From assembly GCA_021234155.1 (NCBI GenBank), contig JAJEKV010000010.1, forward strand, positions 6,176,871 to 6,240,870: a stretch of 64,000 nucleotides of DNA. The letters are read 5' to 3'. Below the pieces are notes generated by a model. It saw nothing but the letters and a program-made list of their open reading frames with translations. It searched no databases and had not been told where the DNA came from. This stretch comes from Isoetes taiwanensis (taxonomy: Eukaryota > Streptophyta > Lycopodiopsida > Isoetales > Isoetaceae). A program made the translations under genes and the position numbers. Positions 2,401-47,214 of this stretch are shown piece after piece (within the stretch, counting starts at the first letter, position 1; each line of letters starts with the position of its first letter).

Positions 2401-5210
2401 ACTTTGTCGTCGAAAATGAGTACCAGAAGACCATATTGATGCGAATTATAGTACAAAGTAAAGGAACAAATGTTCAAAATTAACAAACGAAACTCGTGAA
2501 TTATATGCTATTAAGTTGCACTTACAAATAGTGACACGCCTTTAGCATATGCAAATTCTTCGCTAGAAACATGTTCGCCACGTTGCCTTGCCATCTCTAG
2601 TTGTTCGAGCAGCCATTTATTGTTTATCTCACTTGGCATGACCCCTAGATGATCTGGAAGTGGTTGTTTGCGATTCTTTTGTCAATAGCGTCTTCTCTCA
2701 TCATCTCTCTTTATTTTTTCTTCCTCGTATTTTTTTATCCATTTCTCCATGGGAGTGGAGTTGTAGATGAGAAACTTATTGACTTTTGTCCGTTCTTCTA
2801 GTGTGAACAATTTCTTCTGTGGTCTTCCTTCGGGAACTTCTCCAATCATAGTTGGAGTGTCTTCATCGGTCCATAATCGTGGAGCATTGGGGTGTAGATC
2901 GGCCAAGAACTCGGTGACATAGAATAACGACTCTCGTGCTAACCAACCCTCGCCATGCAACCCCTCGGCCTTGCCTTCGACGCATTTAAGTCCTTGAGGA
3001 CCTTCGAAAAGCCGTTCTATAAAAAACATCCATCTAGGATTTGTTGTGCCCGCAAGCTCTACTTGGCCCACTAAATGCACTAGTAAGTGAGTTTGTATGT
3101 CCGTAAAACTTGTTGGGAATTCTTTTCTCGAGCATACAACATGCCTCAACGACCTTAGTTCGCATGTCCGCAATTTCATTTGTCGGTATCTCCTTCCTTG
3201 TAATCCATCTAAATATCATTTAAGAAAGAAAAAAGTTAAGTGAGAGTTCAAAGATCGAAAGTGTTTTCTAAAACCGCATTTAACCCGAAAAACTCGATAG
3301 GAGACATATTGCACGAGTGGACCGCCGGGAGAGACGACCCTCAGAACAATAGGCATAACAAACCGCAACATCTTATGCCAATCATGAGATTTCAACCTAG
3401 TTAACTCCCCTTCGTTAGAGAAACAATTACGCAACGAATGCATATATCCCGTCGGAGTCTTTATTGCCTTGATCGCTTCTCGAACGGGTTTCATACATTT
3501 TCTAGGCACGATCCAATCCACTTGTGGCCTTGTTTCTTCTTCGACATTTAGCCATGCTTTAGATTTTGATCCAACTTCTTGTAGATCTTCTCGTGCTGCA
3601 TCTGTGTCCTTACGTCCGGTGACATGCCTCCAAATAGACGCCGAAACGTTTTTAAAGATGTGCATGGGATCAAGAAGATGATGGATCTTCAATTTCGGCC
3701 CAATAGGGTAGAAGGAAGAAGGATGCTTTCCACTTCATTCCCTTAACCTTATTTCCTTCAATTTGGCATCCCACATGTTACCCCAATCTCTCATTGTCAA
3801 CCTTTTTGGGAGGCTCTCAAAGGTGCAATGTTTTTCTCTTGGACCTACGACGTATCGAAGTCGATTTTCCATTGGCAGATATCTCTTGAAGTTTGCATAG
3901 ACATTTTTGTGCAATGCCGTTGACCCGAGAGTTCAACTGTTCAAACCCACACAAGTGACATGCCGCATATCCGCACACTTGGAGTCCAGAGAGTTCATAC
4001 AAACCAGGCCAATCGCTCGTTGTCCACATTAAGATTGCTCTCAAGGTAAATCTTCGCTCAGAAGTTCTCTTGAGGCATCGTGTAAACTTCAATACCTTCA
4101 CTCCACAATGTCAAAAGCTCATCAATAACTATTTTCGATACGGATCTAGACTTTCCGGCTTCTTCTGTCCCCGAACTAATAGTACTACCATTAAATGGCT
4201 AGTCTTCATGAGTAACCCGCGGTGGTAAATTATAGTTGATCAACACTCATGGCCAAGTTGACCACGCTGATTGATTGCGTCCATAAGGATTAACACCATC
4301 CGTTGCCAACCCTAATCGAGATTTCGCGGGCTCTCTTCCAAATTCCGGCCATGTTTCATCAATATGCTTCCATTGCTTGCAGCCACTAACCACGCTGGAG
4401 TACATTGTCACCGACGATTAGCTGCACACCAACCCATGAGCCGAAGCTAGAGATTCACATCAAAACAATAGCCTTATGCGAGGGATCAATGGAAAGTAGC
4501 GAACCACCTTCATCGGGACGGTCTTTCCCTTGGCATCTGCTTTTGTACCTAGAGGCACCACATTTAGGGCATGTTTACGTGTTCTTGTAGATGTCATTTG
4601 GATAATATACCATGCAATCATTTGGACAAGCGTGAATCTTATGGTAGCCTAAACCAAGAGTCGCCAATATATTTTTATTTCATTGCGACTTTTGGGCATA
4701 GTGTTCCCTTGTGGGAGTATTTTCTCTTGCAATAACCTCGCATAAAAGCAGGACCTTTACGTATACATTCAACTACAAATTCAATAAGTCAAATGATTGC
4801 AATTGTAGTTACTCTAACAAAGCCGTAACACCGCATTGCTCCATTTGAATTTGGCTTGAAGGTTTAATATCAATAAAGATGTCGCCAATCTAGATATGCT
4901 TGCACTGGATATAATGCTTTATGCGCCTCCTCCAATAAAAAGCGTGATCTTCATGACCATCGTTAGGAGTATTTATATCGCCATCTAGGTCATTGTCGAA
5001 GATTGGGCCAAATGCATCTAACATGTCGACTATGGGTTCCTCAACTTCCATGAAGTCGCCCACGGGGGCATTGTCGTCATCTTCATCATCGTATTCTCGT
5101 TCATCTTCATCATTGTACTCTTCATTATGCGTTGTGCCCATGTTTGTACCATACCGCTCAATGTATTCTAATCTCGCTATCCGCAATGACTTTTGATGTC
5201 GCCAATTCAA
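2074..5210 (-). pseudogene. TNP2-type CACTA transposase, frameshifted
   Basis: Segments of a TNP2 transposase appear in order on the - strand. The N-terminal acidic region is at 5210-4890. A zinc-like CPKCGASRYK and the following WP-containing block fall in the 4.6-4.2 kb stretch. The core TLRAILMWTTSDWPGLYELS is at 4101-3817 and LDPMHIFKNV...LTRLKSHDWHKML at 3692-3216. The DUF4218-like block (FPTSFTDIQTHLLVHLVGQV...ARESLFYVTEFL) is at about 3179-2682, and a DUF4216-like tail (FKTMLFDAEWFD) at 2400-2074. The blocks sit in different frames with stops between them. Some breaks may be introns, for example a GTAAGT donor near 2523, but the change of frame between 3216 and 3179 looks like a real frameshift. 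TNP2 binds and cuts CACTA ends; this copy is probably inactive. Confidence 0.85.
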
Positions 5211-5470
5211 GACGCTTTGGATGTGGTCTCATATCCACTTGCCTACCCCTCGCGTCGCCGATTAAACGAAATATATACGTGATTGATACATGCATTGAGA
5301 GCCCGTGTTTGTTAGATTTTAAGCATCTAATAACGAACGAAATATAAAATTTTATGTCATAATCAAAGCATATATTGAAGATATAATACATATTTATCTT
5401 CAATATGTGCAATCTCATTCCAAGAAAAGAAGAATTCGAAGAATTCGAAGAATTCGAAGAAGAAGAAGTC

Positions 5471-5582
5471 GAAGAAGAAGAAGAAGAAGAAGAAGAAGAA
5501 GAAGAAGAAGAAGAAGAAGAAGAAGAAGAAGAAGAAGAAGAAGAAGAAGAAGAAGAAGAAGAAGAAGAAGAAGAAGAAGAGA
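5471..5582. repeat. (GAA)n microsatellite, about 37 copies
   Basis: A pure GAA tract preceded by imperfect GAATTC(GAA) units at 5431-5470 and followed by AATATTCTCTT. It forms the left junction of the first 3-kb tandem unit. Long glutamate, lysine, arginine, serine or phenylalanine reading frames across it are artefacts. Confidence 0.97.
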
Positions 5583-8500
5583 ATATTCTCTTCGAATTCT
5601 TCAATCATTGAGAAAAATGAATCCTTTGGATGGGTAAAAATATGCACAAAGAAGAATATACTCTTAGATTCTTCAAATCTCTTCTATATATTGCAAAATA
5701 ATTTTAAAGGAAGTAAGTTTTTGATACCAATGGTTGACATGAATAAAGGATTATGGAAAAAATGCTATATGGTTATGGGAATCTCACTAACTATTGTGTT
5801 TCTCTTTGGAATACGATTTTATGGAAGATTGATGAAATATATGCCCTAAGCCCTAAGGTGCAACAAAGGTACTTGACATGATCTTACATTGTATCTTCTT
5901 GCATTTGAATTTCCTATGAATCTTCAAATCATTAAAACACAAATTTATGCTTCAAATTTGGAAATATGCTTCCAAATGTGAAAGGCATCTTGGGTAAAAG
6001 GCATCTTTAGTAATATGGCATTTATTTAGTGTCCAAATCATGCCATGGGCATTTGAGCAATGGTTGTGCCTATTTATCTATTTGGTGTCCTGTCCAGTAC
6101 ATTTGGTGTTCAGTGGCTCCAAGTATAAACAACAAATGTTGTAGAAAGACAAATGGCTATTGAGTGCCAACTTGGTTAACTTGAATAATCTTGGCTAAGA
6201 TTACATCTTTTATAAGTGGCTAAGAAGACATGCCATAATACTTTTTCCTTTAGAGATTTTTTGGTGGCGTGCATGTGTGACAAGAGGTGCCTTTTAGGCT
6301 TTATGGGTTGCATGTACTTTTGCAAACCATTTGCAACTTTGGGGCATGCTTTCTATCGTCCATGCGATTGAGCACAATATGAGGTCAGTACATTTCTTAA
6401 AAAGCTAGTAAGGTACGTGTCCGTTGTTTTGAACAAGGACATGCATTTGATTTATATATGGGGTTGATTCATATAAATGGTCTAACCTTGCACACGTTGA
6501 CAATATGCACAGATATTTTATGTAAAATGGTATTACAATATTTAATTAGATCTTTGGATGGTAAATGTTGCAATTGTGGCAACAACAATGTAATATGTTG
6601 AACATAAGATCCTTGGAAAAATTTCTAAGGTCTTTCATAGAAATAGACGTAGGGTTTAGAAACATGTTACAATACTGGCAGGGATTGTGGCGCCAAAACG
6701 GCCTTACCTTGCCGCCAGGCAGCCGACATGGTCAGTTCACATTTAGAACTGCATGAGAAGAAGTCTAAATCGGTTGAACTTATTGTATTTCGGATTTGCA
6801 GTCTGGATCTAAGCAGTTAGCCGCTTTTGGCTTTGGTGTAGCAGGCAATACAAAGAGCTTATTTGGTTCTCTGCCAATACAAAGAAGATGGATTTGATGG
6901 CATATTGGGTCGCTTGGGATTCAATAGAGATGGAAAAACCATTTTGGATTTGCTAGTAGCAGCGGAAAAATTTGCTAAAGGTCTGTGCTTTTGATAGGTT
7001 TGTAAGAACTACATGTTCTTTGCCTCTGTCTTTCAATCGATTTGTTGCTAGCTATAATGTTAATGATTCTAAATGGTTTCTCGAAGGCAAGATTTAGTTG
7101 TTGCACCTTGCTACAGGGTCGTATTTGGCATTTGGATGCTGGCACAAAGCATGTGTCCATGGTAACACACAGTGATGCTAAGAAGACATGATGGCTCTTA
7201 TGGCATAGTGGCACAGGGCCGGATCTCTGGCATAATAACAGTTCTGGCTTTGGCATACACAGCTGCATTCAAAAGGTAATTTTTGATGATATTTTGGGCT
7301 TTCTTGCATGCCAAGCATACTCTGTTATGATGTAAATAGTGTTCTAAAGCAAGCTTGATCTCAAGATCTACTGGCAGTCATAGATCACAATAAGCATCTT
7401 GGATATTTGGAGGCCATAATGCGAAATGATCTAATGCAAATTGCAATAACTTGGAGTGCGAAAATCAGGTTAATGACTGCTGGTTTGCTCTTTCTAGCAT
7501 GATATCTGGTTAGATAATCATTGATGTTGAAAGGATAAGAATCTTACTTATTTAAATACTACACTAGATCTGTGCTCTGCATAGTGACAAATTCTTGTAA
7601 AGTATTATTACAGGTTTAAAAGTAGGCTTAAAAGTATGCTGTATTTGCCTTAAATAATCAGCAGAATCTATTGACTTAAAAATGATACGGGTTACGTATT
7701 CTCTAAGTAATGATAGGTAGCACAAACAAATTATGCCTTTGATGTGCAAAGATTTATTCTGGGAAGCTATAAAGGGATTTAAATGATATAAGACTATTTG
7801 ATGATCGATTGGGAAGTTAAAAACGTCATGCTGTATGCTGTTAAAATGTTTATGATATCACGAGCCTTATGAAAACCTGGAATAAGATGGAATATACATA
7901 TGAAGAAGTGATGCTTTATGCTTAAATTATATGAACATGGACCTACTGATTTATAAGAGAAGAAAGTAAAAATATCTAAATAGAACTAATTATCAAGATA
8001 ACCAGCTAGATCTGGGATCAAGAGATTGGTTCTCATCTAATGGTAATGCTTGATTTTAGTAAGATTGAAGGATTTAAATGAGATAACTATCCTCTAAGAT
8101 CATTTGAGAAATGTATAACGTTAAGATTATTCTAATTCCGGTGTCCTTTCTTGTTAATGTCACCTCAGGGCAAAAGGATACAATTGGTGATCAGTGATAA
8201 ACTGAGAGACCCAATGTACCTTTTGGCCCTTGCATCGTTACCGGGATTACTGCTAACGTTTGCATGATTGGCTGCAGGTACGGGTTCTCTCCTCTAATTG
8301 TCTCCATTTTGCTGTTAGAGTTGGCGTTAACGCGGAAGAGGATGGAATATGTTACATCAAGATTCAAAGTTTACTTTATACTTCAGACTTTCAAATTCAA
8401 AACTTCATAGTTGTAAGATTTAAGTTTATAGTTGTAAGATTGATTACCTTATACTTTCAAATTCAAAAACGTTATGTACAAGTTGGATATGTTAATATGG

Positions 8501-8715
8501 AAATGATGATATGAATTATTTTACTCAAGATTTTTATTTTTGGATATATTTTTTCAATATAGTAAATTATATGGGCTAAGGTTTGTAGAGTGCCTGATGT
8601 GGCCTGGCCTAAAAAACCAGGGTGGATATTGGGATAAGTGATCTTGCCTTGAACAAGGTTCTTTTAATGTAATTGTTTGCATAACTGTGACTGTAGTGTT
8701 GGCAAGAACATGTAC
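5583..8715 (+). repeat. Tandem macro-repeat, unit 1 (divergent copy)
   Basis: No gene is recognisable. The unit lies between two GAA tracts and is a diverged relative of units 2 and 3. Shared landmarks in order are ATATTCTCTT after the GAA tract, a TGGCGCCAAAACGGCC block near 6690, the 64-bp hairpin at 8167-8230, GGCTGCAGGTACGG near 8271, and CCTGATGTGGCCTGG with ACCAGGGTGGATATTGGGA near 8593-8636, just before the next GAA tract. The constant order shows that whole units were duplicated. The CCTGG/CCAGG pair with GATATTGGGA resembles the edge of a retrotransposon repeat, but I could not delimit an LTR. Orientation is arbitrary. Confidence 0.7.
8167..8230 (+). repeat. Conserved hairpin, copy 1
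   Basis: The arms AGGGCAAAAGG and CCTTTTGGCCCT pair around a 40-nt interior containing CAATTGG and CCCAATG, which extend the stem. The same 64-bp block recurs in units 2 and 3, and a diverged copy occurs at 58,605. Confidence 0.75.
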
Positions 8716-8911
8716 GAAGAAGAAGAAGAAGAAGAAGAAGAAGAAGAAGAAGAAGAAGAAGAAGAAGAAGAAGAAGAAGAAGAAGAAGAAGAAGAAGAAG
8801 AAGAAGAAGAAGAAGAAGAAGAAGAAGAAGAAGAAGAAGAAGAAGAAGAAGAAGAAGAAGAAGAAGAAGAAGAAGAAGAAGAAGAAGAAGAAGAAGAAGA
8901 AGAAGAAGAAG
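8716..8911. repeat. (GAA)n microsatellite, about 65 copies
   Basis: A pure GAA tract of 196 bp, the longest in the window, at the junction of tandem units 1 and 2. GAA tracts of this length can form triplex DNA and are known to be unstable. Confidence 0.98.
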
Positions 8912-11846
8912 ATATTCTCTTTGGATCTTCTTAAGGTTGAATGACGTTATCTTATGAGTGGATAACATGGAAATTTACAGGGTTGCATGTGGTGTATTAT
9001 ATTGTAACCTTTGGAGTTTGAATTTTGCCATTAAAGCTCTTGAGTGACAAGAATTAAAGGCGATCTTACCACATTCATCATTTGTAGCTTGGCTTTGAAT
9101 GTATAGGGTGATTCATTCTGAAGACTTATACTCTACTTTGGTTATGGCCAAAAAATCTATTAATACGCTTGAGAAAAAATTATAGTCTGGACAACAAGAA
9201 TATAAGGTGGATGTACATTGGGAAATTTATCCATCTTGAGCGTGGCTCAACGTACTTTTGCGATTAAGACCGCTTGGGTGAAATTGTTTTTAGCTATATG
9301 GTTCCACATTTAAAATATGGGACAAAAAGCTTTTGAAAATGAGATCTTTGAAAATAGTTAACAATGGTTTGTTGCTCAAATAGCTTATTTGGCCTAGAAA
9401 AAGGCAAAAAAATCCAATGGATAGAAATTGGCAAGGAAATCAAGGCATGTAAAAGCGCTGTGGCATATTGTTCACAAACGACTCTACATGGTAAACATGC
9501 TTTCTCTTAATTCCGTGGTGACACAGAAGGCTTTCTACATGAACATGATATTTGACATGGAGCATGATATTTGACAAGGTTGGAGGGACAATACAAAAAT
9601 GGAAAAATGCAAGATAAATTACTACCTATATGGGTGTGCAAACGAATTTATATGTTGCATATTGAATGCTACAAACAAATTTTACATTATGTTGGCTTTG
9701 TAACTTTTGGAAAAATTATATGGCTTGAATAGGACGCTCTATTCTAAAGATTGGTGGCCTTAGTCATGCATGTGTGCCACTTGTCTATATAATGCACATG
9801 CACCTTTTGGCTTGCTCTACATAAATTACGTTGAGCACAAAAGTGCTTTTGTTTAGGCTATGTGGATGCAGAAGACTTATTCTATTTTATTTGCATGGAT
9901 TTGACGTCTACACGGCTATAACCCCTTGAAAAATATTTCAAGGGCATAAATAGAAATCGATTTAGGGCTTTTCTATATTGTCTCTTAGGGCAAAAGGATA
10001 TTTTCAATGTCCGTGACTACAAATGGCCGAAATGCCTGGCGCCAAACTGGCCTCCTGTATGACTTGGTGCAGCCGAAAAATATGATGCTGGATCTATTGC
10101 AGTACACAGATTGGAACGGTAATCTCACCTTGTTCCTTGTTGAAGGATAATGGCAGCGAATTTGCTCCCTGTAAATACAATACAATGCTCTGATATCACA
10201 ATTTTTGTTATGCAAGATGTCGATGCTTTGAAGATGGGTTTGCTTATGCCCTGTACGAAATTTACTGGTCAGTTATGCAGCCTAGGCAAGGTATCGTTCA
10301 ATCCTAAGGAAGGCTCTTATGCAGCCTAGGCACAGCATCGATTAACTTAAAGAAGGCTGTATTGCTAAATATATTGTTTAAATATACTGGTCTGGCCTTG
10401 CAATCTTGATCTGTTGTGCCAAGCTTGTTCTACCTGCAAGAATAGCTACTGAGTGCTCATACTGGTCTTTGTGCTAGATGCTATTGCAAATAGAAGCGGA
10501 TATGGATTGTTGGCATACAACAGATAACATGTCAGAGTTTATCTTTTTGATCTAAGGTGGAGCTTTTTGTGTATTTGGTGCTCTGATCGACCTTACTAAG
10601 TACTTGGTGCTCTGCATATTCCTTCTTATATCAAAACATAATCACAGAGGTAAATGAGATCGATGTGGTAATGCTAACTTTGAATACAAATAATAGGCTT
10701 GCAAATGAGCTTGAAATATATACTTTCTATTTCTGCCTTATAATACAGATGCATTTTAAGGTGGAGGATGACACGCACGTCATCTGCTGGGGATTAAAAC
10801 ATGGTTGCATACTATGTATTATGGCTCCTGGAAAATGCCGAAATGCGCTAAAGATTTATTTGATGGCATTCTAGGCAACGATGTATGCCTATTCTGGAGT
10901 ATACTATCTGGAGACTTCAAATATCAGGTTCTTCACTGTTTCATGAATAAAATGATTAAGATATTTGCTAAATCGATTAGACTAGCTAAATATTTCATAT
11001 TTCTGTGTTTCCATTAGATTTTTTGCTGCCTTAGTTTATTGAAAGGCAAAAATGGAATCGCATAACTTAAGTGTATGAGCTTAAGTATTATCTTGTTTAA
11101 AACATTAAGAAGAGTATGAAATCTGATTTTTACATCTGAAAATTTAAAGTTGTAAGAAAATTATCATGCTATTGAACAATTATCAACATGACCAGCTGGA
11201 TTTGGGACTAAGAAATTAGTTCTCGTCTAATGGGAATGATTGATAATTGAGAAATTATAATGCTAAATATGCTACTATTCCAATCCTTTCTAGTTAATGT
11301 CACCTCAGGGCAAAAGGATACAATTGGTGATCAGTGATAAACTGAGAGACCCAATGTACCTTTTGGCCCTTGCACATTTACCATTATCATGCTAATTGTG
11401 TATTGATTGGCTGCAGGTACGGTTCTCTCCTCCAATTGTCTCTATTTTGCTCGTAGAGTAGGCGTTGACATGAAAGCTGATGGAATAGCTTGGAAAGTAC
11501 TTTATGGAATATGTTGCACCTTGATATTGCGCAGATAAGATATAAATATGTTACTACGTTCTAAGAAAATCTATTGATTACGTTATACTTTATACATTAT
11601 GTTTATCATGTACAAATACTAATGTGGAAATGATTATATGGATTATTCTATCTAAATGTACAATTTTGGAATCTGCTATGTGAAATGTTCTATTTTTAAA
11701 TTTTGATTTTACCAAAGGATAATGGAAGTAGGAGTACCTGATGTGGCCTGGCATAAAACACCAGGGTAGATATTGGGAGACATGTCTTACTTTGAACGAG
11801 GCGTTTAAATGTTTTTTAACATTATCTGACCGTAGTCTTTGTAAGA
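8912..11846 (+). repeat. Tandem macro-repeat, unit 2
   Basis: The block is almost base-for-base identical to 12,350-15,303. I saw only scattered substitutions and small indels, for example a 9-bp difference near 13,254 and single-base differences near 13,957 and 14,276. It has no convincing gene: the longest shared frames (about 76 aa, -, near 10.0-10.2 kb) lack any known motif. Starting right after a GAA tract and ending in TTTGTAAGAACATATTCGAA before a short GAA remnant, it mirrors unit 3 exactly. Confidence 0.9.
11307..11370 (+). repeat. Conserved hairpin, copy 2
   Basis: Identical in sequence to the copies in units 1 and 3, although the flanks of unit 1 have diverged widely. The block is therefore better conserved than its surroundings. 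Confidence 0.75.
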
Positions 11847-12326
11847 ACATATTCGAAGAAGAAACTGTGACATCTATTTGCTGGAGGTATTCAGCAAACA
11901 CATCATTTCTGAAACATTAAATAATGTTGACTCCTTATTTGGATTTAGCATTACTAATTGTGATTATGATCTATTACAGCTGAATGGTACTTGGCTATAA
12001 CATCTAGCTGGGTTGGATGGTAAATGATTCATGACCTTTATCAGGTTATCCATAGTATGTATAGCCTAATGTGCTGTATATACATCTCAAATCTATAAAA
12101 TAACTTTGGTCCATTGTACCAAGGCATAGAGATTGGGTCCATTGTACCTAATCTCTTATGTTTAATATTTCTTGCAGCTTTGACATATCAAGAACTGCAT
12201 GCAATGAATTAGAATGACTTTTCTATTTTCTTCTGGTGTAAGGAAGTAGGACCCCTCTTTTTATAGGGGGGGTCCTACTTCCCTTATAAACAGAGGAGTC
12301 TTACATCCTGAGGGAGGGATGTGGGA
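11847..12326. other. Spacer between tandem units 2 and 3
   Basis: About 480 bp not found in unit 3. It begins with a GAAGAAGAAAC remnant and contains a perfect inverted repeat at 12,242-12,281. No gene is seen. It ends in GGGAG(GAA)n. It may be the original sequence into which units were added, or a deleted fourth unit. Confidence 0.6.
12242..12281. repeat. Perfect inverted repeat in the spacer
   Basis: GGAAGTAGGACCCC and GGGGTCCTACTTCC form a 14-bp perfect stem with a short AT-rich loop. The poly(G) side has extra G residues. The right arm is followed by a related GAGGAGTCTTACATCC. It could be a MITE end or a strong hairpin of unknown role. Confidence 0.7.
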
Positions 12327-12349
12327 GAAGAAGAAGAAGAAGAAGAAGA
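12327..12349. repeat. (GAA)n microsatellite, about 8 copies
   Basis: A short GAA tract at the left edge of unit 3, followed by GAATATTCTCTT, the same edge sequence as units 1 and 2. Confidence 0.9.
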
Positions 12350-15303
12350 GAATATTCTCTTTGGATCTTCTTAAGGTTGAATGACGTTATCTTATGAGTG
12401 GATAACATGGAAATTTACAGGGTTGCATGTGGTGTATTATATTGTAACCTTTGGAGTTTGAATTTTGCCATTAAAGCTCTTGAGTGACAAGAATTAAAGG
12501 CGATCTTACCACATTCATCATTTGTAGCTTGGCTTTGAATGTATAGGGTGATTCATTCTGAAGACTTATACTCTACTTTGGTTATGGCCAAAAAATCTAT
12601 TAATACGCTTGAGAAAAAATTATAGTCTGGACAACAAGAATATAAGGTGGATGTACATTGGGAAATTTATCCATCTTGAGCGTGGCTCAACGTACTTTTG
12701 CGATTAAGGCCGCTTGGGTGAAATTGTTTTTAGCTATATGGTTCCACATTTAAAATATGGGACAAAAAGCTTTTGAAAATGAGATCTTTGAAAATAGTTA
12801 ACAATGGTTTGTTGCTCAAATAGCTTATTTGGCCTAGAAAAAGGCAAAAAAATCCAATGGATAGAAATTGGCAAGGAAATCAAGGCATGTAAAAGCGTTG
12901 TGGCATATTGTTCACAAACGACTCTACATGGTAAACATGCTTTCTCTTAATTCCGTGGTGACACAGAAGGCTTTCTACATGAACATGATATTTGACATGG
13001 AGCATGATATTTGACAAGGTTGGAGGGACAATACAAAAATGGAAAAATGCAAGATAAATTACTACCTATATGGGTGTGCAAACGAATTTATATGTTGCAT
13101 ATTGAATGCTACAAACAAATTTTACATTATGTTGGCTTTGTAACTTTTGGAAAAATTATATAGCTTGAATAGGACGCTCTATTCTAAAGATTGGTGGCCT
13201 TAGTCATGCATGTGTGCCACTTGTCTATATAATGCACATGCACCTTTTGGCTTAGCTTTTTGCTCTACATAAATTACGTTGAGCACAAAAGTGCTTTTGT
13301 TTAGGCTATGTGGATGCAGAAGACTTATTCTATTTTATTTGCATGGATTTGACGTCTACACGGCTATAACCCCTTGAAAAATATTTCAAGGGCATAAATA
13401 GAAATCGATTTAGGGCTTTTCTATATTGTCTCTTAGGGCAAAAGGATATTTTCAATGTCCGTGACTACAAATGGCCGAAATGCCTGGCGCCAAACTGGCC
13501 TCCTGTATGACTTGGTGCAGCCGAAAAATATGATGCTGGATCTATTGCAGTACACAGATTGGAACGGTAATCTCACCTTGTTCCTTATTGAAGGATAATG
13601 GCAGCGGATTTGCTCCCTGTAAATACAATACAATGCTCTGATATCACAATTTTTGTTATGCAAGATGTCGATGCTTTGAAGATGGGTTTGTTTATGCCCT
13701 GTACGAAATTTACTGGTCAGTTATGCAACCTAGGCAAGGTATCGTTCAATCCTAAGGAAGGCTCTTATGCAGCCTAGGCACAGCATCGATTAACTTAAAG
13801 AAGGCTGTATTGCTAAATATATTGTTTAAATATACTGGTCTGGCCTTGCAATCTTGATCTGTTGTGCCAAGCTTGTTCTACCTGCAAGAATAGCTACTGA
13901 GTGCTCATACTGGTCTTTGTGCTAGATGCTATTGCAAATAGAAGCGGATATGGATTGTGGCATACAACAGATAACATGTCAGAGTTTATCTTTTTGATCT
14001 AAGGTGGAGCTTTTTGTGTATTTGGTGCTCTGATCGACCTTACTAAGTACTTGGTGCTCTGCATATTCCTTCTTATATCAAAACATAATCACAGAGGTAA
14101 ATGAGATCGATGTGGTAATGCTAACTTTGAATACAAATAACAGGCTTGCAAATGAGCTTGAAATATATACTTTCTATTTCTGCCTTATAATACAGATGCA
14201 TTTTAAGGTGGAGGATGACACGCACGTCATCTGCTGGGGATTAAAACATGGTTGCATACTATGTATTATGGCTCCGGAAAATGCCGAAATGCGCTAAAGA
14301 TTTATTTGATGGCATTCTAGGCAACGATGTATGCCTATTCTGGAGTATACTATCTGGAGACTTCAAATATCAGGTTCTTCACTGTTTCATGAATAAAATG
14401 ATTAAGATATTTGCTAAATCGATTAGACTAGCTAAATATTTCATATTTCTGTGTTTCCATTAGATTTTTCTTTGCTTTAGTTTATTGAAAGGCAAAATGG
14501 AATCGCATAACTTAAGTGTATGAGCTTTAAGTATTATCTTGTTTAAAACATTAAGAAGAGTATGAAATCTGATTTTTACATCCTGAAAATTTAAAGTTGT
14601 AAGAAAATTATCATGCTATTGAACAATTATCAACATGACCAACCGGATTTGGGACTAAGAAATTAGTTCTCGCCTCTAATGGGAATGATTGATAATTGAG
14701 AAATTATAATGCTAAATATGCTACTATTCCAATCCTTTCTAGTTAATGTCACCTCAGGGCAAAAGGATACAATTGGTGATCAGTGATAAACTGAGAGACC
14801 CAATGTACCTTTTGGCCCTTGCACATTTACCATTATCATGCTAATTGTGTATTGATTGGCTGCAGGTACGGTTCTCTCCTCCAATTGTCTCTATTTTGCT
14901 CGTAGAGTAGGCGTTGACATGAAAGCTGATGGAATAGCTTGGAAAGTACTTTATGGAATATGTTGCACCTTGATATTGCTCAGATAAGATATAAATATGT
15001 TACTACGTTCTAAGAAAATCTATTGATTACGTTATACTTTATACATTATGTTTATCATGTACAAATACTAATGTGGAAATGATTATATGGATTATTCTAT
15101 CTAAATGTACAATTTTGGAATCTGCTATGTGAAATGTTCTATTTTTAAATTTTGATTTTACCAAAGGATAATGGAAGTAGGAGTACCTGATGTGGCCTGG
15201 CATAAAACACCAGGGTAGATATTGGGAGACATGTCTTACTTTGAACGAGGCGTTTAAATGTTTTTTAACATTATCTGACCGTAGTCTTTGTAAGAACATA
15301 TTC
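12350..15303 (+). repeat. Tandem macro-repeat, unit 3
   Basis: A near-identical copy of unit 2, offset by about 3,440-3,449 bp along its length. It ends in TAAGAACATATTCGAAGAAG directly at a GAA tract and then meets the 3' end of the SET-domain gene. No gene is supported inside it. The near identity indicates a recent duplication. Confidence 0.9.
14756..14819 (+). repeat. Conserved hairpin, copy 3
   Basis: The same 64-bp hairpin as at 8,167 and 11,307, at the equivalent position of unit 3. Confidence 0.75.
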
Positions 15304-15341
15304 GAAGAAGAAGAAGAAGAAGAAGAAGAAGAAGAAGAAGG
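15304..15341. repeat. (GAA)n microsatellite, about 12 copies
   Basis: A GAA tract between tandem unit 3 and the 3' end of the SET gene. Serine-rich frames running through it are artefacts. Confidence 0.95.
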
Positions 15342-15383: not shown

Positions 15384-16671
15384 TCAAAGGACCTCCGGTA
15401 TTGGTCTACCGTATTCATATTCAATGAGCAATTCATCACCAATACACAAAGTTTTTATAGCATAAACCATGATATATCTCCCGTCAATTTTACGCCTAAA
15501 AAATTCTTCTTGGTCTTTGTTTGCCTCGACAAATTCACAATTGGTAGCTTCAGGATTCTCGATAGAGCTATTAATAAAAGCAGCAAGGTTTCCATGCAAC
15601 TGAGGACGACCATCAATATATGTGAAGCTTGCGTAGTCACTGGGCTTGGATATTGTTCGTGCATTTCAATTTATGCCAAGTGTCTGAGTTATATTCAGGA
15701 CCTACATATGGCATTAAAGGAACAGTCGTACCATCTTTGACTTTTGTATTTGTCATAATATATAATCCCAGGCCAAAAGGGGGACCGGATCGCTTTTAAT
15801 CATGTAACGCCTACCCCAATATGTAAATTGCTCCCCATAAATAATTGGCTTGCCTCTAGGCCATGCATTGAATTTCTTACGATCTTTGTCTGTAAAGGGC
15901 TGGACCAAATGGACTAGTGAAGGTGGAAGATTATTTTCTTCTACATGATCTAGTACATTCCAATTTTGATGAACATTGTCATTCCCTCCAATCTTGGCAA
16001 CGGCCATTGCACGACGAGTTCTATCACGTAATGGGATACTCTTTGCGAAAGTTGATGGCTTTCTTTTTGTAGGGTTTTCTATGAACGCATTCATAGTATC
16101 AACATCATCTACTTCCAATGACAACATAACCCCAAAATCTATATACTGCTTCGAGCTCACTTCATTCTCAATTTCTTCCTAACAAAATACAAGCAAACTA
16201 AGTTAAGACGTCGATTCAAGTACATGAGAGTAGTTGATTCGAGTTCATGAGATTCGTGTATTATACCTCGTTGGAATACCCCACATGTGCGTTCGAGAGC
16301 ACTGGATTTGTCGGGCATTCACCATATTTATCAACATGGTCGAGGACAGTCTTTCTCATCCGTTTTATTTGTCCTTTGCACATCGAACAATTGCAATATA
16401 ACCGCTCTGTCAAGTACAACTGCAAAAAAAAAAAAAAAAGTAACATCAAGATATAAAGTTAACTAATCATTCGAAACATGTTTATTGTACATACATCGGC
16501 GGCATTCATTTCATGCACACCACCAAAGCCTCTAGGAAGACTCGGTCCACTGGGTCTAATTGGACTATTTGTGGCAATTGTTGGGGTAACATTCTTGCGC
16601 AAGTCGCCATGTAACATTCTCAAAGCTTTCTGTCTCACTTTACGTTCAAATTCCTTATGACGTTCGTCCAT
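15384..16671 (-). pseudogene. SET-domain (histone methyltransferase-type) gene in the CACTA element, two frameshifts
   Basis: Three exons with canonical junctions and preserved phase: 16671-16495 (ATG, 59 codons, GTATGT donor), 16419-16267 (acceptor after a T-rich tract, 51 codons, GTATAA donor) and 16178-15384 (TTAG acceptor). Exon 2 carries YCNCSMCKG...TVLDHVDKYG, a cysteine motif I associate with plant transposon proteins. Exon 3 ends in a SET domain: GLGLYIMTNTKVKDGTTV (the G-x-G start), GNLAAFINSS (substrate pocket, usually NHS), then IGDELLIEYEYG (the GEEL..DY signature). SET domains transfer methyl groups from S-adenosylmethionine to lysine. The catalytic tyrosine region is retained, but NHS reads NSS. 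Two single-base-type shifts break the frame: one at a C run near 15,779, one near 15,640. Without them the protein would be about 375 aa. Its stop lies 43 bp from a GAA tract. Confidence 0.75.
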
Positions 16672-16831
16672 GTTGTTTTTACTAGTAAACAATAAAAATA
16701 TTAATAAAAAACCATGTAATAATATAATAAATATAAATATCCATGTCTTTTTTTTAGATTTTATCAAATGTTTCTTCTTAAGATTTAGATTGATACAACG
16801 TTTATGATATTTAGAAAGCATTTGATTGAAG

Positions 16832-17025
16832 GGTGCCTGAACCCAATACATCTAGTCCTCTCCATTTGAAATGGAGTCGACCAGTACCTTATTCACGCAA
16901 CCTTTCAAATCTTTTGTAATCTATGAAGATTGAAACTTCTGTTTTAAGGTGCATAAACCCGATACATCTTCTCCATTCGGGATGGAGCCGACTCGTACCT
17001 TGATCATGCATCCCTCAAGTTTTTA
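16832..17025. repeat. Two imperfect direct repeats upstream of the SET gene
   Basis: The series GGTGCCTGAACCCAATACAT, CTCCATTTGAAATGGAGTCG, GTACCTTATTCACGCA recurs about 115 bp later as GGTGCATAAACCCGATACAT, CTCCATTCGGGATGGAGCCG, GTACCTTGATCATGCA. Each copy includes a small palindrome (CTCCATT...ATGGAG). The pair lies in the region expected to hold the SET gene promoter or leader. Confidence 0.7.
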
Positions 17026-17215
17026 ACATACTTTCAAGATTCAATCTTCTAATCTATTAGCATTTAGAGGTGTTTAACTCTAAAACCACAAAGATTAACA
17101 AACTAGCAGAGATCTTACCTTATAAAGACCCACGGGCGCAAAAAAATCCGAAAGCAATGAGACAAAATAACAATGGAATGGAAAAAATAACCCGGGCGGG
17201 TTCCCGCCATATTTA

Positions 17216-17975
17216 ACGTCGTTTATCGACGTCTGTGTAACGTCGTTCAACGACGCCAAACCAACGTGGCTTGACACCCAGGCATGCCACGTCAGCTCGG
17301 GGCGTCGGATGCCGCCTCATATGCCACGTCAGTTACCAGTTCGGACGTCGTTTAACGACGTCCAGCTGATGTGGCTTGACACCCAGGCATGCCACGTCAG
17401 ATAGGGGGCGTCAGATGCCCCCTCAGATGCCAACGTCAGATGATCACGACGTCGTTTATCGACGACTCACGGATGTGTCAGACACGCCGGCGTGCCAGCT
17501 TGTCCACAACACCGTGCCACGCAGGCATGGTGGACACGTCAGCTCTGTGCGACGTCATTTATCGACGACTTCGCGGGCGTGTCGGTTTCTGGCCGGCGTG
17601 CCGGCTTGCCCATAAAGGTGCCATGCGAGCATGGTGGACCGCGTCGGCTACACCGCGGCGTCGTTTTATCGACGACTTCAGCGGGCGTGTCGGATACGCC
17701 GGCGTGCCGGCTTGTCCACAACACCGCCACACAAGCATGGTGGACCGTCGGCTTCACAACGTCGATAAACGGCGTTTTTGGCGACGCGGTTCAGACACGA
17801 AAAGCATGCGGCCTGGCAATGGGACCATGCCCGCCGGGCCGACGCGACACGTCGTTTTCGGCATCGTCGATAAACGACGTCGCGATGCCGTTGAACGACG
17901 TAAAGGTTGTTCAACGACGTTGGCGTCGTTTTTCGACGATGTGACGTCGTTGTTCAACGTCGGGATGTCGTTGAA
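17216..17975. repeat. Subterminal repeat array of the CACTA right end
   Basis: Many copies of ACGTCGTTTAACGACGT and variants (ACGTCGTTTATCGACGAC, ACGTCGTTGTTCAACGTC) in both orientations, interspersed with a GC-rich unit (CGTGTCGG...GCCGGCGTGCCGGCTTG...GCATGGTGGAC) repeated three to four times between 17.46 and 17.75 kb. Such arrays are typical of CACTA ends, where the accessory protein binds. Reading frames here are repeat artefacts. Confidence 0.85.
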
Positions 17976-17996
17976 GGTCGACTATCCCTTGTAGTG
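17976..17996 (-). repeat. CACTA terminal inverted repeat
   Basis: Read on the - strand the terminus is CACTACAAGGGATAGTCGAC. The three bases outside it (17,997-17,999, TGA) would be the target-site duplication; the other copy is outside the window. Confidence 0.85.
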
Positions 17997-37155: not shown

Positions 37156-37676
37156 TTATAAAGTATAAGTTAACAAAAGATCCTTTTTGAAGGGAAGTAT
37201 AACCCTGTTTAAGGTAAAAAGAAGAAACTTCTTAGAGGGAAGTTTAACCCTATAATGTATGTGTTTATGGAATATATTCAAAATAGCCTGGAGCATGTTA
37301 TCTGAACTCTGTATCGTCTGCATACATGGATGTCCACTAAAAGTAAGACCTGAGGTTGGATTTCCTGGATTTGCTGCCTCTGCCTCTGACCATGACTGAT
37401 AGTACACAGAATGGGCACATACAGGATTCTGCTTTCGCCATATTGAGCCGTCCCTTACTGTCTTTTGCCTCACAAAGCAAATCTCTTCTAGCATTTGGAT
37501 TCTGATCACAACAGCAGTTACAAAGGCATGGCTCCTCATGGTTGTAGAGATTGGGAGGGCCGAACACTTTGATCCATTGCTGATTAGTATCTGCATCAAT
37601 CTTCTTCCATTTGAGTTTGCGCACCAGTATGAAGATAATACCTGAAATATGAGAAGAATACAAATTAGAATTGAGT
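37156..37676 (-). other. 3' region of the outer LINE, with a cysteine-rich frame
   Basis: Between the zf-RVT segment and the poly(A) tract. One frame (37,663-37,337) has CLCNCCCDQNPNARRDLLCE followed by CMCPFC, eight cysteines in 40 residues. A different frame contains CAHSVYYQSWSEAEA, faintly like the YYYH motif of the other two LINEs. Which frame was coding is unclear. Confidence 0.4.
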
Positions 37677-39480
37677 CTATAAAATGGCTGAAATCCATCT
37701 GATGTCGTATTGAACTTGTTTGATGATTGCCTCCGGGTGAGTTATCTCGCAGTTAAAGATAAAATTGTTCCTCCCCTTCCAGATACGCCAGAGAAGGATA
37801 TAGATCCTCCAATCGATAGGATTATTCGGCAAAAAGAACTCCAACGGGTCAGCCATGATAAGGTTATATCCAAAGATATTAGAAGCAAGCTCAAGGACCC
37901 ATTCCGACCAGAGACAATCTTTAAAGAGGTGTTCTTCATCTTCCCTGTGACTGATACATCTGGGGCAGACATCCGAATCTGTCATATGAACCCTATATCT
38001 TTTATGATTGGTGGCCAGAGCTCTATGCCAAAGTTGCCACATAAAAGACTTCACTTTTGGGGGGATAGGACTCGACCACATGAATTTTAAATTCTTAATG
38101 CATCTCACTTCATCTGTCTGCCACTTGCTATGAATGGAAAGCTTCTGGTCTCTCATCAGGTATCTGTAAGCATTCTTAACCTTGAAACCCGTGATACCAT
38201 TATAATTCCAGTTATCCTCATCATTTGACCAAGTCCCCTGAGAGAGCGATGTGCATATATTATTATACAGCATTTCCGTTTCCTCCCCTTCCCCCTCCAG
38301 GGCCGAAAGATGAAAGGGGATGATACCTTGGTCATCATATATATCTCTGATGAAATGGATTCCTTTGCTCCCCCAAATTCTGGCCTGCTCCGGAAAATGG
38401 CATGCTAAACATAAGGAGGCATTATTAGTAAGGAGAGCCGGATTCCAAAAAATAGATTGATCCATGGATAACCCCTCTTTCCAGGAAAACATGCCTTTAA
38501 CTAGATTCCATGCTCTGATCCATTTCTTGATTATGCCAGGGATAGAGTTTGGAACTTTGATTGGAAAGAATATAGCATGAGGCAACACTAAATTTAGCTT
38601 CCTCCACCCATAAGAAAGACATCTGCTTAAGTAATGCCTTGTGATAATAGAAACCGGGTGTTTGATCAGATCATAGGCTGCCTTGTACAGATACTTAGCT
38701 GCAAGAGCAATCCCCTGCTTTTCTATGTTTATGACACCTAGACCCCCCAGACCTCTGCCTTTACAACATTCCTCCATAGCCACAGGAGTCCAAAGATCTT
38801 ACATTACGCCTACCAGGGATAAGAATCTCCCAATAATGCTCTGAAGTTTGGAGGTTACTTTCTTAGGAGCAAGAATGACAGATGACTGGTAAACATGAGA
38901 GGAAGAAATGACAAAATTTGCAATTATGCCCCTGCCCTGCTTAGAAATATGTTTGGAGTTTAGGCTGTCCACTTTCCTTTGAAATTTCTCAATAATATCA
39001 GACCATATATCAGAAGGACTACCTTTAAGGACTAAGGGAATTCCTAAAATCTTGGAAGCATTAGTGGGAAGGATATACTTACACCCTAGGAGAGCAGCTG
39101 TTTGCTCTCCCTTTACCTGATCCCTGGCAACCACTTTGGATTTGAGAGGATTGATCTTGCACCCCGAGGCTACTCCAAATTCTTCCAAGATGCTTTGAGT
39201 ATTGATAAGCGATCTATTGTCCATCGAAACTAGGAGGAAAGTATCATCTGCAAAATGTCCATTTAAAAGTTGATCCATCTCCCCATTCTCAGGGAGGGTG
39301 AGGCCTTGGATCATATTAGATCTCTTTGCTTCTTCTAGCTTACCATGAAGAGCCTCCATAATAATAAGGAATAGGAATGGAGCTAGTGGGCATCCCTGTT
39401 TTACCCCTCTTTGCAGGGGGAAAAAGGGGCCACATTCTCCATTAATTAAAACAGAAGATCTGGAATTTGAAAGTATAGCT
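37677..39480 (-). pseudogene. Outer LINE ORF2, C-terminal half (RT palm to zf-RVT)
   Basis: The frame starts after the nested insertion with RSSVLINGECGPFFPLQRGV, then KQGCPLAPFLFLIIMEALHG (RT block with the expected GCPLAP), and the catalytic HFADDTFLLV at about 39.25 kb (two aspartates). CKINPLKSKV and KILGIPL follow. A frame change near 38.79 kb leads into a 368-codon open stretch containing GLGGLGVINIEKQGIALAAK and the zf-RVT domain (PPKVKSFMWQLWHRALATNH, then CPRC, H and C ligands, LWRIWKGRNNFIF). This enzyme copies LINE RNA at the nicked target. One or two frameshifts make it inactive as read. Confidence 0.88.
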
Positions 39481-39485
39481 TTGAA

Positions 39486-39930
39486 AAGGAAGGAAGGAAG
39501 GAAGGAAGTTTATTTTAACGTCCACGGAGGCCAGAGGCCTATGAGACGGTACATGCAGAGAACAGGCAAAAAAGCCAAAAACCCCAACACCAAAAACAAA
39601 CAATGTAACTGTACAGTAGAACCCTACTACCGGGATGAAAAAACCCCCACTTGGGAGGAAAAACCCTAACAGTAGGCTCTCAAATACCATGCCCCTGAAG
39701 AGCAAGTCTGACGGCCGAAATCTGCAGGATGTAAGCTCCCGGGTCGCTACCATCGGTGATGCGAGTAACTGATGTAGCGGTGTGTCAGAGCATCTAAGAT
39801 CAGTGTGCACTGCTCGGACATGGGCATATGCTGGGCACCGCTGGAGGGCATGGTGCTCATCCTCTATCACGTGCATCTCACAACACTGACATATCCTCTC
39901 CTCCCTGGGGATCCCGTGCCCGCCATTCAC
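39486..39930 (-). pseudogene. Nested LINE, C-terminal zinc motif
   Basis: The frame begins RICQCCEMHVIEDEHHALQR followed by CPAYAHVR: a CxxC...H...C pattern found after the reverse transcriptase in many LINEs, probably a nucleic-acid-binding zinc knuckle. After about 90 residues the sequence becomes hydrophobic and likely untranslated. Confidence 0.6.
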
Positions 39931-40044: not shown

Positions 40045-41906
40045 TCAAGGCGGGATTAATCGGCGTGATAGTGCTCGTCTTGGGCTTTGCAAGAGTAGAG
40101 GCATCCCACAGGGTGGCAGCATAGCCCACATCCAATTGCCCATTCTCGCATGCGATCGGGAATCTGCCAGTGCCACCATCTGTTGGTAATCCATAGACCA
40201 CCTCCTAAACCATCCCTTACAGTGCTCGTGCCATACCCTCTTCAGCCGCTGGGGGCCCTGCGTTAACAACACGGCCTGTGGGGGCAAGCGATGCTCATCC
40301 ATCCCATCCACCTTATGGAAGCAAGTAAGATGTCTCAGCAAGATAGCGTATCGTCAGTAAAGGCGAACCCCGTCTCATACAACAAAATCGACACGGTGCG
40401 GTGTCCTTCACTCCCAAGCTATATGTCAAGAAAGCTTTCTGCACCCTTTCCAACCTATCCCACGTGTTTTTGCTAACTGCTGGGCCCCAAACCTCCACCC
40501 CATATAGCAGCACCGGCTCGACCAAAGCCCTAAACAAGTGTGCTCTCCTTGCCCAGTCACAGAGATCTATCCGCAACACGTTTTTTTTGCATCGCATATA
40601 AAGCCTTCCGCCAACACTTGCGGCTCTCCTCTCCACACACTCATCCCACGGCATGTTAGTAGTGAAATCAATTCCCGGATACTTGAAGCTCGCACCATCT
40701 CCACTTCCGTCCCCCCGTAATATAACTCCGGGATAGGGTGTTGCGAGGGACGGGATCGCGAGAAGCTTAGTTTTGTGCAAGTTCTTTGTCATTCCCGTTA
40801 CCCCACGTAACCCACCCGAGGGCATCCAAATCTTCGCTGCATAACGCTGGCCGTGTGGGCTAGCAAAGCTACATCATCCGCATATAGCAACTGGCTCACA
40901 GAGGTCGCCTCAGATAATTGCACCCCGGCTCCCCCATGTTGCCGCATCCACGTCTCCAAGCTATCAATGTACAACCCAAAAGCGTTGGAGACAACGGGCA
41001 GCCCCGCTTAACTCCCATAGTGCTAGCTACCCCGCCGATCTTCATAAGGCGGGCAAAGCATGAATCCCATCATAAAGCTGGTGCACCCCATTCTCGCGCA
41101 ACTCTCTGTGGAACTTCGCAAGTCTTGCAACCTCTCGCCCACAAAGATGTCTCCGGGGCGGTATCATATGCGATCTTAAAATCTACAAAGCAAAGCAATA
41201 CAAGTTCGTCGCGCATTGGGCTTGCCTCCATCAACACTCTCAAAGTGAAGATATGGTCGGTCGTGGAGTGAGCCGGGCTTAAAGCCCTGCCCGCCAATTG
41301 CCCGCACCCCCTGCCTCCTCGGCCCACTTAGTGAGTTTCTTCTCCACCACCCCTGCCAGGAGCTTTGCAAACATCGAGCTTACCATAATCATCCGGTAAT
41401 TCGACGGCTCATCCTTATTACCAGCTTTATGCACGGGAACAACCTTACTAACCATCCACTCCGGGGAGCCCTCATTTCGAGCACGGTTGATGATTCTTGT
41501 CGGGGCCCTACCACGGATGGGCCACCCTACCGCAGCCCCCAGTAAATCCTTTGCCTTGCCATTCGCCGGATGCCCGAGACCCTGGCTGGACATCCTCCCG
41601 CGTGAGCTGCAGCACCTCTCCTACCTGATCCGGGACCCTGGCATTAGCTCCTGGGGGGTCATATAACTCCTGCAAGCGGTGCATCCATTGCTCCACACTT
41701 ACATTACCAGCCACCTGGCGCTTATGGTATAACACCTTACGCCAAAACGCTTTTGGCTCTGCCATGAGCATATCAAACAGGCGCTCCTGGGTTTCTGCCA
41801 TGTATCTCCCCTTCTTGGCTTTTAGGAAGAGCTTATAGTCTTGCGGGGCGTGGGTGGCGAATCGTGGATCTATGACCAAGCCAGCTGGCTCTTTAGAGCC
41901 TTGCAA
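40045..41906 (-). pseudogene. Nested LINE, reverse transcriptase region
   Basis: RT blocks in several frames: VSKVVPVHKAGNKDEPSNYR (block 1-2) at about 41.45 kb, LLCFVDFKIAYDTA (first catalytic aspartate) at about 41.18 kb, LLYADDVALL (catalytic YADD) at about 40.88 kb, then SFKYPGIDFTTNMPWDECVE and VLLYGVEVWGPA near 40.6-40.45 kb, typical of the post-RT part. Stops and frame changes separate the blocks. A connecting segment with SKEPAGLVIDPRFATHAPQD joins it to the endonuclease. Confidence 0.82.
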
Positions 41907-42793
41907 TCAGCATCAAACCACGGGTTCTCAGGAAAATGCGCGGTGTCCCTCCTTGGAGGGCCCTTCACTGCAAAGGAAGCCCCAGCAGCTGCAAGCAGTG
42001 CCCTCACCAGCCATGCACACCTGTCTTGCAGTGTGTAAAAGCTATCAAACCCCTGTAACTCCCGCACCAACACAGATTCATACTGTCCCTGCTTCTGATA
42101 GCGTGGGATGTATGGTAACCCTCCACGCCCCCTTTGCGGTGTCTCCACTATTGAGTGCTCCCAATTCAGCGTGACATAAAGCGGGTAGTGATCTGACAAA
42201 GCCTCCTCATCCCCTGTGCTTGTGCCAATGGAGAAGTGTGTAACCATATCAAGTGCTGCTACCGGAGCGAGAAGGTAATCCAACACACTAGCTCCCCCAT
42301 CCTGCCTATCACTCCTGCAAGTAACACCCCCTGAGTGTGGCCATCGCTGCATACCATTACAAATTACCATGTCAAAAACCTGGCAGAGCTGGACCAGCTG
42401 CCTGCCAAATGGTCTAGCCACCATATCCTGGGAGTGCCGTGTATGCTGAATAGCGGCTGTCTCAAGCCAAAGCGGATCAGCATTAGCGTCACCTTGGAAG
42501 GTCACCGACTGCAACTGCGCCGTACGAGCATTGAAATCTCCTAGCAAAAACACATGTCCCTGCTGTCTATAGCGGTCTATGTCATCATACAGTTCCCTAT
42601 ACGGCATCTGGACATCTGTGTCTGCATCATGTACCTGGTAGAACTTAGAGCCTGCATGGGGAATGTAGCAGCTAGCAAGAAACAATGGGACATGACCAGG
42701 CTCTAATACCATTACCCACATGTAGCGGTTAAATGCATCAGACTTCTGAAGTGTGATCTTGCATGCTAAGGCGTCCCTAAAGTAGCAAGCCAC
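41870..42793 (-). pseudogene. Nested LINE, endonuclease (EEP) domain
   Basis: About 300 open codons with the C-terminal half of an exonuclease-endonuclease-phosphatase fold: HVFLLGDFNARTAQLQ (the GDFN motif, catalytic), SVLDYLLAPVAALDMV (the D-x-x-L block) and EEALSDHYPLYVTLNWEHS (the SDH motif with catalytic histidine). The N-terminal part continues, frameshifted, to about 42.95 kb. This enzyme nicks target DNA to prime reverse transcription. All three motifs are preserved here. Confidence 0.85.
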
Positions 42794-42930
42794 TCCACCG
42801 CATACCGCGTCGCCATGGCGCTCATTAGCAAGTGAGAAATGCCGATATCCTCGAATGTCGGCAATCGATGCCCTTCATACTCCCATGTCTCCTGCGGGGA
42901 AGGCGATGTCCATGTGCCGCGCGATCCCAT

Positions 42931-44340: not shown

Positions 44341-44395
44341 ATACAAATCATACACCGACGGAAAGCTCGTTCGATAAGCTTTTCAACGAGCCCAA

Positions 44396-46264: not shown

Positions 46265-47214
46265 TAAACCCTATACTTCCCTGAAACCAACCCTGCTTGG
46301 ATGGTCAATTTTCTTGGACTAGATCTGCTAGGGCTAAAACTTAACTTCTTCTTACCTCTGCCCTTTTTTCTGTTCACTATTGTCCATACCTTGTCTTCTG
46401 AGTCGGGGGTGTTCCCAATATCCTGATTTTCCGTCCGTGAAGCCTTATCATCTGCTTTCTGAGCGGGGTTAGAAAAATCAGGGATAGAGAATATAAACTT
46501 GCCTGAGTCAACTCTGACAGCCAGGTTGACATTCTTGATGAGGACCACCATATCTTCGTGAATTTCCACCTTGGGTAGAAGTTCATCAATGTTGCCCTGA
46601 TTAGTGGTAATCTGGGTCTCCAAGCTCTTAACAGATTCCGCCTTGCTCCCTTCCACCCCTGAGTTATCTTTAGCATTGACCTTGGGGGCCCATACCTGCT
46701 TAAGCTTCGGGGCAGTCACTGGGTCACAGGCAGGTTCATGAATTGGCCATTTGGAGTAATTAATGGTGAGGTCCATGAACTCATCAGCCTTGACTCTGAT
46801 CTTTATCTTTTTTTTTCCAATCAGAAGTTATTTTCTTGGCGATACAAACCGTAGGGAAGTTAGTTTGGGGAATATTAATTTCGAGGACCTCCCCTAAAGG
46901 TTCACAGAGAGTATACAGATGGGACCGAGTCCAAAAGGCCGGAGGGAGATTCGGGAAAGATAGCCAAGTAGACGTTTGAATTTCCTTCTTCGGGCCAGGG
47001 ATGAAGAAAGGGGACCAATTCATAATATAAAAAGGAGCATTGTTAATGAAGTCCAGCTTTCTTCTTAAAATTTGTTTAACACAGACCTCATCTCTGCAAA
47101 CAATTTGATAGGTCTTTTTATCCAGCTTGAGAATAGACAGAATAGGAATGTGCTGGGATTTGGTTATCCAGTTCTTGACCTCCCCTTGATTTGGGCATAC
47201 CCGCGGGAAATGCA
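46264..47214 (-). pseudogene. Outer LINE ORF1 with DUF4283 domain
   Basis: DUF4283-type RNA-binding region: FIPGPKKEIQTSTWLSFPNL followed by PPAFWTRSHLYTLCEPLGEV, the usual pattern of plant L1 ORF1. A one-base shift in a run of nine A residues near 46,810 separates it from the C-terminal half (IRVKADEFMDLTINYSKWPI to KLTIQAGLVSGKYRV), which is otherwise open. The stop overlaps the ORF2 start region, as expected for this family. The 5' end is lost at the target duplication, so the first residues are missing. Confidence 0.82.

Follow-up and report, generated by a model that had tools for sequence, protein, structure and literature searches.

The question raised by this locus is whether a SET-domain gene found inside a CACTA terminus is a component of the transposon or a piece of host sequence carried along by it. 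The window, i.e. the whole 64-kb stretch of DNA that was analysed, located at C908:6176871–6240870, contains one such gene, and the conserved SET exon, present in many copies, belongs to a CACTA lineage. It is very probable that this exon is a heritable and selected component of the lineage. The fuller account, put forward with moderate confidence, is that the SET exon has long been part of the CACTA coding region, that the region would have two splice outcomes, and that the SET product may act against silencing.

The CACTA terminal inverted repeat of the window, CACTACAAGGGATAGTCG, is located at positions 17979–17996 and reads inward from its outer end at 17996 on the minus strand. The terminal 18-mer was found 161 and 153 times (314 altogether) in the 1.66-Gb source genome, whose repeats look like those of a plant, and 0 times in a reversed control. 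The adjoining subterminal repeat region (17150–17978, minus strand) contains CGTCGTT/AACGACG motifs, 13 of them within 17150–17996 against a mean of 0.12 across 500 base shuffles; an internal cluster of five such motifs is present at 780–920. The clear terminus and the subterminal repeats described in an earlier sequence-only reading of this DNA were thus confirmed. The gene, which that reading placed 0.5–1.3 kb inside the terminus, lies 1.3–2.6 kb inside it. The end features of CACTA/EnSpm elements were also present in a distant copy, L060: a terminal repeat beginning with CACTA occurs as one terminus in the window and, in a different form, as the CACTACTAGAGAA end of L060, and subterminal repeats occur in the latter as GACGT/ACGTC motifs (2413–2707 of the reverse complement).

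The SET gene of the window consists of three minus-strand exons within 16671–15384, with GT-AG borders and every intron in phase 0. Exon 1 (16495–16671, phase 0) has 59 codons, exon 2 (16267–16419) encodes a TAD-like cysteine finger (CNCSMCKG), and exon 3 (15384–16178) encodes a pre-SET region and the SET domain. The domain itself was verified with Pfam SET (PF00856; cut-off 22.4 bits), which was over the cut-off in all four copies scored: the terminal piece of exon 3 in the window (27.0 bits), C701 (29.5), L060 (31.4) and L061 (24.6). Compared with an open copy, exon 3 of the window is missing 1 bp and 41 bp and is not one open frame, and the correct splice sites and phase claimed for the gene therefore hold at the splice borders but not through exon 3. 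The SET gene in the window is real, but this copy of it is broken. The cysteine motif of exon 2, previously read as being of a transposon type, does resemble Transpos_assoc (TAD, PF13963), but weakly: 15.3 bits (E 0.023) in the window, 13.8 in C701, 23.7 (E 5e-5) in L060 and 23.1 (E 8e-5) in L074, all below the cut-off of 27.7, and no match to PF13963 in L073.

When the window segment served as a DNA query, the best 40 of 1009 candidates were scored, the window among them; the 39 other copies had 89–96% identity over the main match, mostly starting inside the subterminal region. Upstream of the gene, a CACTA terminus was present in 15 of the 20 flanked loci, window included (CACTACAAGGG in 13, CACTACAAGGA in two), and neither form was found in the stretch examined of the remaining five. 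The ATG was located 1.3–2.3 kb inside the terminus in 12 of the 15 terminus-bearing loci, these being the ones where the ATG pattern matched. Among 40 copies, including the window and the reference, the splice dinucleotides were retained in 39 at the exon-1 donor, in 32 at the exon-2 acceptor, and in all 40 at both the exon-2 donor and the exon-3 acceptor. The whole gene reads through in three of the 40 (L011, L013 and L015), of which L015 is the reference copy and L013 reads through with a net in-frame loss. Protein searches gave at least 154 matches with the C701 SET exon as query (best 139 of 1967 candidates scored) and at least 144 with that of L060 (best 141 of 1863 candidates scored). 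SET exons were found at more than 200 places in the source genome, in at least three subfamilies and with identity down to 47%; among the matches listed, identity to one of the two queries was 43–100%. The claim that other copies of the family carry the gene, which would have fallen had it been absent from them, stood: SET exons occur genome-wide, many of them beside tnp2 transposases.

The subfamilies are old. Nine other aligned open SET exons were 47–96% identical to that of C701, the exon of L060, open and of 274 aa, being 48% identical. The order in L060 is the CACTA end, TAD-like exons, the SET exon, Transposase_21 (205 bits, E 1e-60) and DUF4218 (94.7 bits), so that both the tnp2 transposase (PF02992) and the DUF4218 domain (PF13960) of CACTA/EnSpm elements are present. 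L064 (81%) starts again with CACTACAAGGG, while no terminus was seen upstream of the SET gene in L061 (82%; about 2.1 kb examined) or in L073 (47%).

Between subfamilies, dN/dS was 0.28 for C701–L061, 0.26 for C701–L065, 0.21 for L060–L073 and about 0.15 for C701–L060, with dS near saturation in the last pair. In five other deep pairs dS was saturated. Measurable between-subfamily values lay within 0.15–0.30 overall, open exons alone having been used, which favours low values. Close pairs gave 0.25–0.67 and the recent burst of 40 copies a pN/pS of 0.565, as expected if most of these changes postdate insertion. Purifying selection was not demonstrable within the burst, where introns are less divergent than exons, and the burst set alone therefore gives no sign of constraint. 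Constraint is visible only between subfamilies, among the aligned open copies.

In all ten aligned copies the motifs AG(L/F)GL, HGN..FINSSI and GDELFIxYxY were kept; the GxG-type motif is AGLGL in nine and AGFGL in L073, and the tyrosine motif ELFIxYxY is present in all. The NHS motif, which binds AdoMet in SET domains, is absent, its His being replaced by Ser (INSS) in 10 of 10 transposon copies, whereas NHS was found in seven of seven SET domains elsewhere in this genome. Since NSS stands in place of NHS, methyltransferase activity may be altered or lost. The Tyr of ELxxxYxY is of catalytic type, and some PRDM-type SET domains may remain active even though they have lost the His. Judged from these motifs, we lean towards predicting methyltransferase activity for a TAD-SET product. 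It is unlikely, though a serious alternative, that the SET protein is instead a DNA-binding or scaffold factor with a TNPA-like role, its SET domain having lost the ability to methylate. The change from NHS to NSS in every copy would agree with such a role, as would the little mutual similarity of the DNA-binding proteins of CACTA families reported in the available part of PMC2613891; the retention of AG(L/F)GL, of the Asn of INSS and of both Tyr of ELFIxYxY in all ten copies, together with the low dN/dS, speaks against it.

The transposon SET domain is only remotely similar to those of the host. A profile comparison with the other SET domains of the genome aligned 52 columns (probability 82%, E 1e-5), and against the SET parts of the eight best PF00856 loci the best tblastn match had E 0.001. 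A profile search of these eight loci with the transposon SET gave no match. Phmmer and profile searches against PDB gave none at E up to 1, and an NCBIfam search gave none either.

A degraded CACTA transposase lies downstream of the SET gene in the window (2682–5247, minus strand, exon start at about 5247), where DUF4218 (2682–3215, 43.1 bits) is the sole transposase domain over its cut-off. The C701 copy (L033) is colinear with the window: it has its terminus at 575, SET exons at 2412–3737 that are open (389 codons including the stop), and the transposase from about 4018, followed by DUF4218 (49.3 bits), an antisense ORF (8110–8583) and a 1.1-kb tandem array. The window and C701 are 94% identical over the SET part and 90% across 4.7 kb on the transposase side. 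The window has the colinear antisense ORF at 956–1519 on the plus strand, and no Pfam family was above its cut-off there. The window, C701 and C222 all have broken transposase frames, the Transposase_21 piece of C222 reaching 18.3 bits, under the cut-off of 28.6. In four of the six long copies of subfamily A that were read (the window, C701, C222 and C1072) the transposase region was present downstream of SET; the region found beyond SET in C701 was not found in C1059 (about 16 kb read) or C1034 (about 11 kb).

Genome-wide, 102 transposase places had at least 52% identity, and at least 45 of these are preceded on the same strand by a SET exon no more than 6 kb away, in 43 of the 45 at a distance of 0.54–1.32 kb. 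Arranged by transposase identity, a linked SET was found in at least 8 of 16 places at 81–100%, at least 15 of 35 at 70–80% and at least 22 of 51 at 52–69%, and in at least 3 of 36 places below 52%. The counts were made from the coordinates of listed SET and transposase matches, so that the linked figures are lower bounds. Among the matches listed, one of the 57 unlinked places at 52% or above has SET upstream on the other strand and none has it downstream; 56 of the 102 have no SET within 6 kb on either side.

The place of the SET exon was determined from exon borders read from the sequence, including those of L060 and L074. In C701 and L060 the exon is flanked by the TAD-like exon on one side and by the transposase exon on the other. 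The transposase exon of L060 begins without an ATG at a phase-0 acceptor, TTGTAG|GATATTCGACCTGAT (DIRPDP), 144 bp past the SET stop (about 280 bp in C701), and the exon-2 donor of L060 is likewise in phase 0, which makes the two compatible. L074 is the only SET-less relative read, one of 33 low-identity places without SET among the matches listed, and its transposase is about 42% identical to that of L060. Its TAD-like exon ends with a phase-0 GAG|GTGAGA, and 69 bp after it stands a matching acceptor, TTGTAG|GACATTAGATGT (DIRCEG). The SET exon thus fills the place of the L074 intron, because the TAD-like exon and the matching acceptor are there 69 bp apart. The position and phase of the SET exon support a gene model with two endings, and alternative splicing of the finger exon into either TAD-SET or TAD-transposase is fairly probable on the basis of these borders. 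The separate SET gene of the sequence-only reading is probably wrong, since the exon sits between the TAD-like and transposase exons and has the look of an alternative last exon.

That SET nevertheless forms an independent gene of the element, transcribed by itself, with a start of its own for the transposase just downstream, is quite unlikely: the SET ORF does have its own stop codon, and in subfamily A the transposase exon has an ATG within its first few codons (GTGGATATGAGACC), but the gap between the two exons is very short, the L060 transposase exon starts at a splice acceptor and lacks an ATG, and in L074 the matching acceptor lies 69 bp from a TAD-like exon. A third reading, in which splicing removes the SET stop to give one SETMAR-like protein of TAD, SET and transposase, is very improbable. 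Subfamily A has a phase-0 GAG|GT directly before the SET stop; no phase-0 GT was, however, seen on reading the last codons ahead of the stop in L060, and in 11 of 11 open exons the stop precedes any transposase frame. In C701, L060 and L061 it precedes the transposase exon, and SET and transposase do not form one frame. A single captured host gene fragment, of the Pack-CACTA kind known from CACTA elements (PMC8978399; PMC8616336, the available part of which mentions CACTA just for such capture), was rejected as extremely improbable in view of the many copies in old subfamilies, the purifying selection between these, the linkage to the transposase and the remote similarity to the SET parts of the eight best PF00856 loci of the genome.

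Under the preferred reading, a plant CACTA (EnSpm) lineage would long have kept a SET exon that functions within its own coding sequence. Transcription would begin inside the CACTA terminus, and the single transcript would have two spliced forms: the TAD-like finger joined to SET, with the stop in the SET exon, or the TAD-like finger joined to Transposase_21/DUF4218. The TAD-SET product would have its N-terminal finger in common with the transposase; it would bind the element ends and could there methylate nearby histones or another chromatin protein, and the promoter-bearing terminus would be kept active against silencing. An anti-silencing role of the SET product is a tentative proposal, with somewhat less than an even chance. 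More tentative still is the complete scheme, in which a two-ending gene with a shared promoter and finger yields either a transposase or a self-targeted histone methyltransferase that may place activating marks both at the element's own ends and on its non-autonomous relatives.

No recognisable CACTA with a SET gene was found among the papers listed from the open-access literature; Repbase reports and subscription journals were outside this scope, and the result is weak evidence. SET histone methyltransferase genes have been taken up by HarbingerS and by Phytophthora MuDR families (Kojima and Jurka 2014, cited in PMC12730594). As far as described there, these are likewise DNA transposons with an acquired SET gene, but they belong to other superfamilies and hosts, whereas here the SET exon lies between TAD and transposase of a plant tnp2/CACTA element; the adjacent transposase is tnp2 and not of HarbingerS or MuDR type. 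SETMAR/Metnase of primates also combines a SET domain with a transposase (PMC9062482), but is a single host gene, a fusion with the Hsmar1 transposase, in contrast to a many-copy transposon component with separate frames. The fungal transposons with TET/JBP dioxygenase, including EnSpm-type ones, similarly carry a chromatin- or DNA-modifying enzyme; that enzyme is, in the passages available of PMC12730594, a DNA dioxygenase, and the hosts are fungi.

Among plant elements, En/Spm of maize, with tnpA and tnpD produced by alternative splicing, and Tgmt* of soybean share the CACTA ends, subterminal repeats and tnp2 transposase. They produce several proteins from one gene by alternative splicing, which is here proposed from phases and acceptors, and the second of these proteins is TNPA or one presumed to bind DNA, SET being unmentioned in the available text (PMC2613891). 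The CACTA elements of Chenopodium and other angiosperms share TAD, Transposase_21 and DUF4218/DUF4216 in the coding region and likewise have a satellite array inside the element; their added domains are Peptidase_C48 and Transposase_24, and 'SET' has 0 occurrences in the part of the source that was available (PMC8978399).

If true, a selected SET exon within the transposase gene of a CACTA element would mean that the element takes along a counter-defence that writes chromatin. It would also be a natural example of a transposase gene that recruited an enzyme domain to serve as an alternative last exon. To our knowledge, VANC, TnpA and MURA are not SET proteins. Few plant transposon proteins that resist silencing are known, these three among them, in the available part of PMC10398659, which also ties transposon proteins to methylation loss. 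VANDAL VANC, Spm TnpA and MURA resemble the proposed product in lowering DNA methylation or countering silencing, and a SET domain is not mentioned for them in the accessible passages (PMC10398659; PMC5735166).

The SET exon and the transposase of the window are separated by an insertion of about 9.8 kb (5470–15340), missing from the C701 and C222 copies. It consists of two near-identical tandem units of ~3.44 kb plus a third, diverged one; (GAA)n borders the insertion, and each unit stands beside such a repeat. The insertion-edge sequence was seen by eye next to (TTC)n or (GAA)n also in L029 and L071, as if the 3.44-kb repeat settled at (GAA)n/(TTC)n microsatellites inside the CACTA family.

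No partner terminal inverted repeat was found, with mismatches allowed, in the 64-kb window or 13 kb to its left. Similarly, no convincing partner was present in C701 (15.6 kb), C1072 and C1059 (20 kb each), C1034 (15.2 kb), C222 (21.3 kb, to the contig end), L060 plus 8 kb, or two pieces of 1.5 kb each located past a far subterminal-like segment. By eye, this segment was seen again at 15 places including the window, 0.3–44 kb downstream of a SET copy and in the same orientation as it, and may not belong to one element with SET in every case. No 3-bp target-site duplication was found, the far element end not having been located.

Several minor features accompany the copies. Three SET-CACTA copies (L033:9792 to the end of L034; L035; L037/L038) have a GC-rich 1.1-kb tandem array, of which about 5.6–11 kb was seen, on the downstream side of the transposase; in C701 and C222 the array continues to the end of the contig. 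Between the SET gene and the subterminal repeats, a ~0.5-kb block (L033:1042–1612 compared with L031:1135–1654) differs in orientation among copies: C1072, C1059 and C1034 have it inverted compared with C701 and C222, and the window copy showed no match to it. Downstream of the C1072 copy, L032:2396–8667 contains a second CACTA-type element (Transposase_21 99 bits, DUF4218 66 bits). ORF fragments of an unidentified protein (L073:1–390) were seen immediately before the 5' side of the subterminal-like region in one SET-CACTA copy. Elsewhere in the window, the ORFs at 37156–39509, 44348–46270, 40313–42874 and 51918–52691 resemble, by eye, LINE endonuclease/reverse transcriptase and a Copia-type polymerase.
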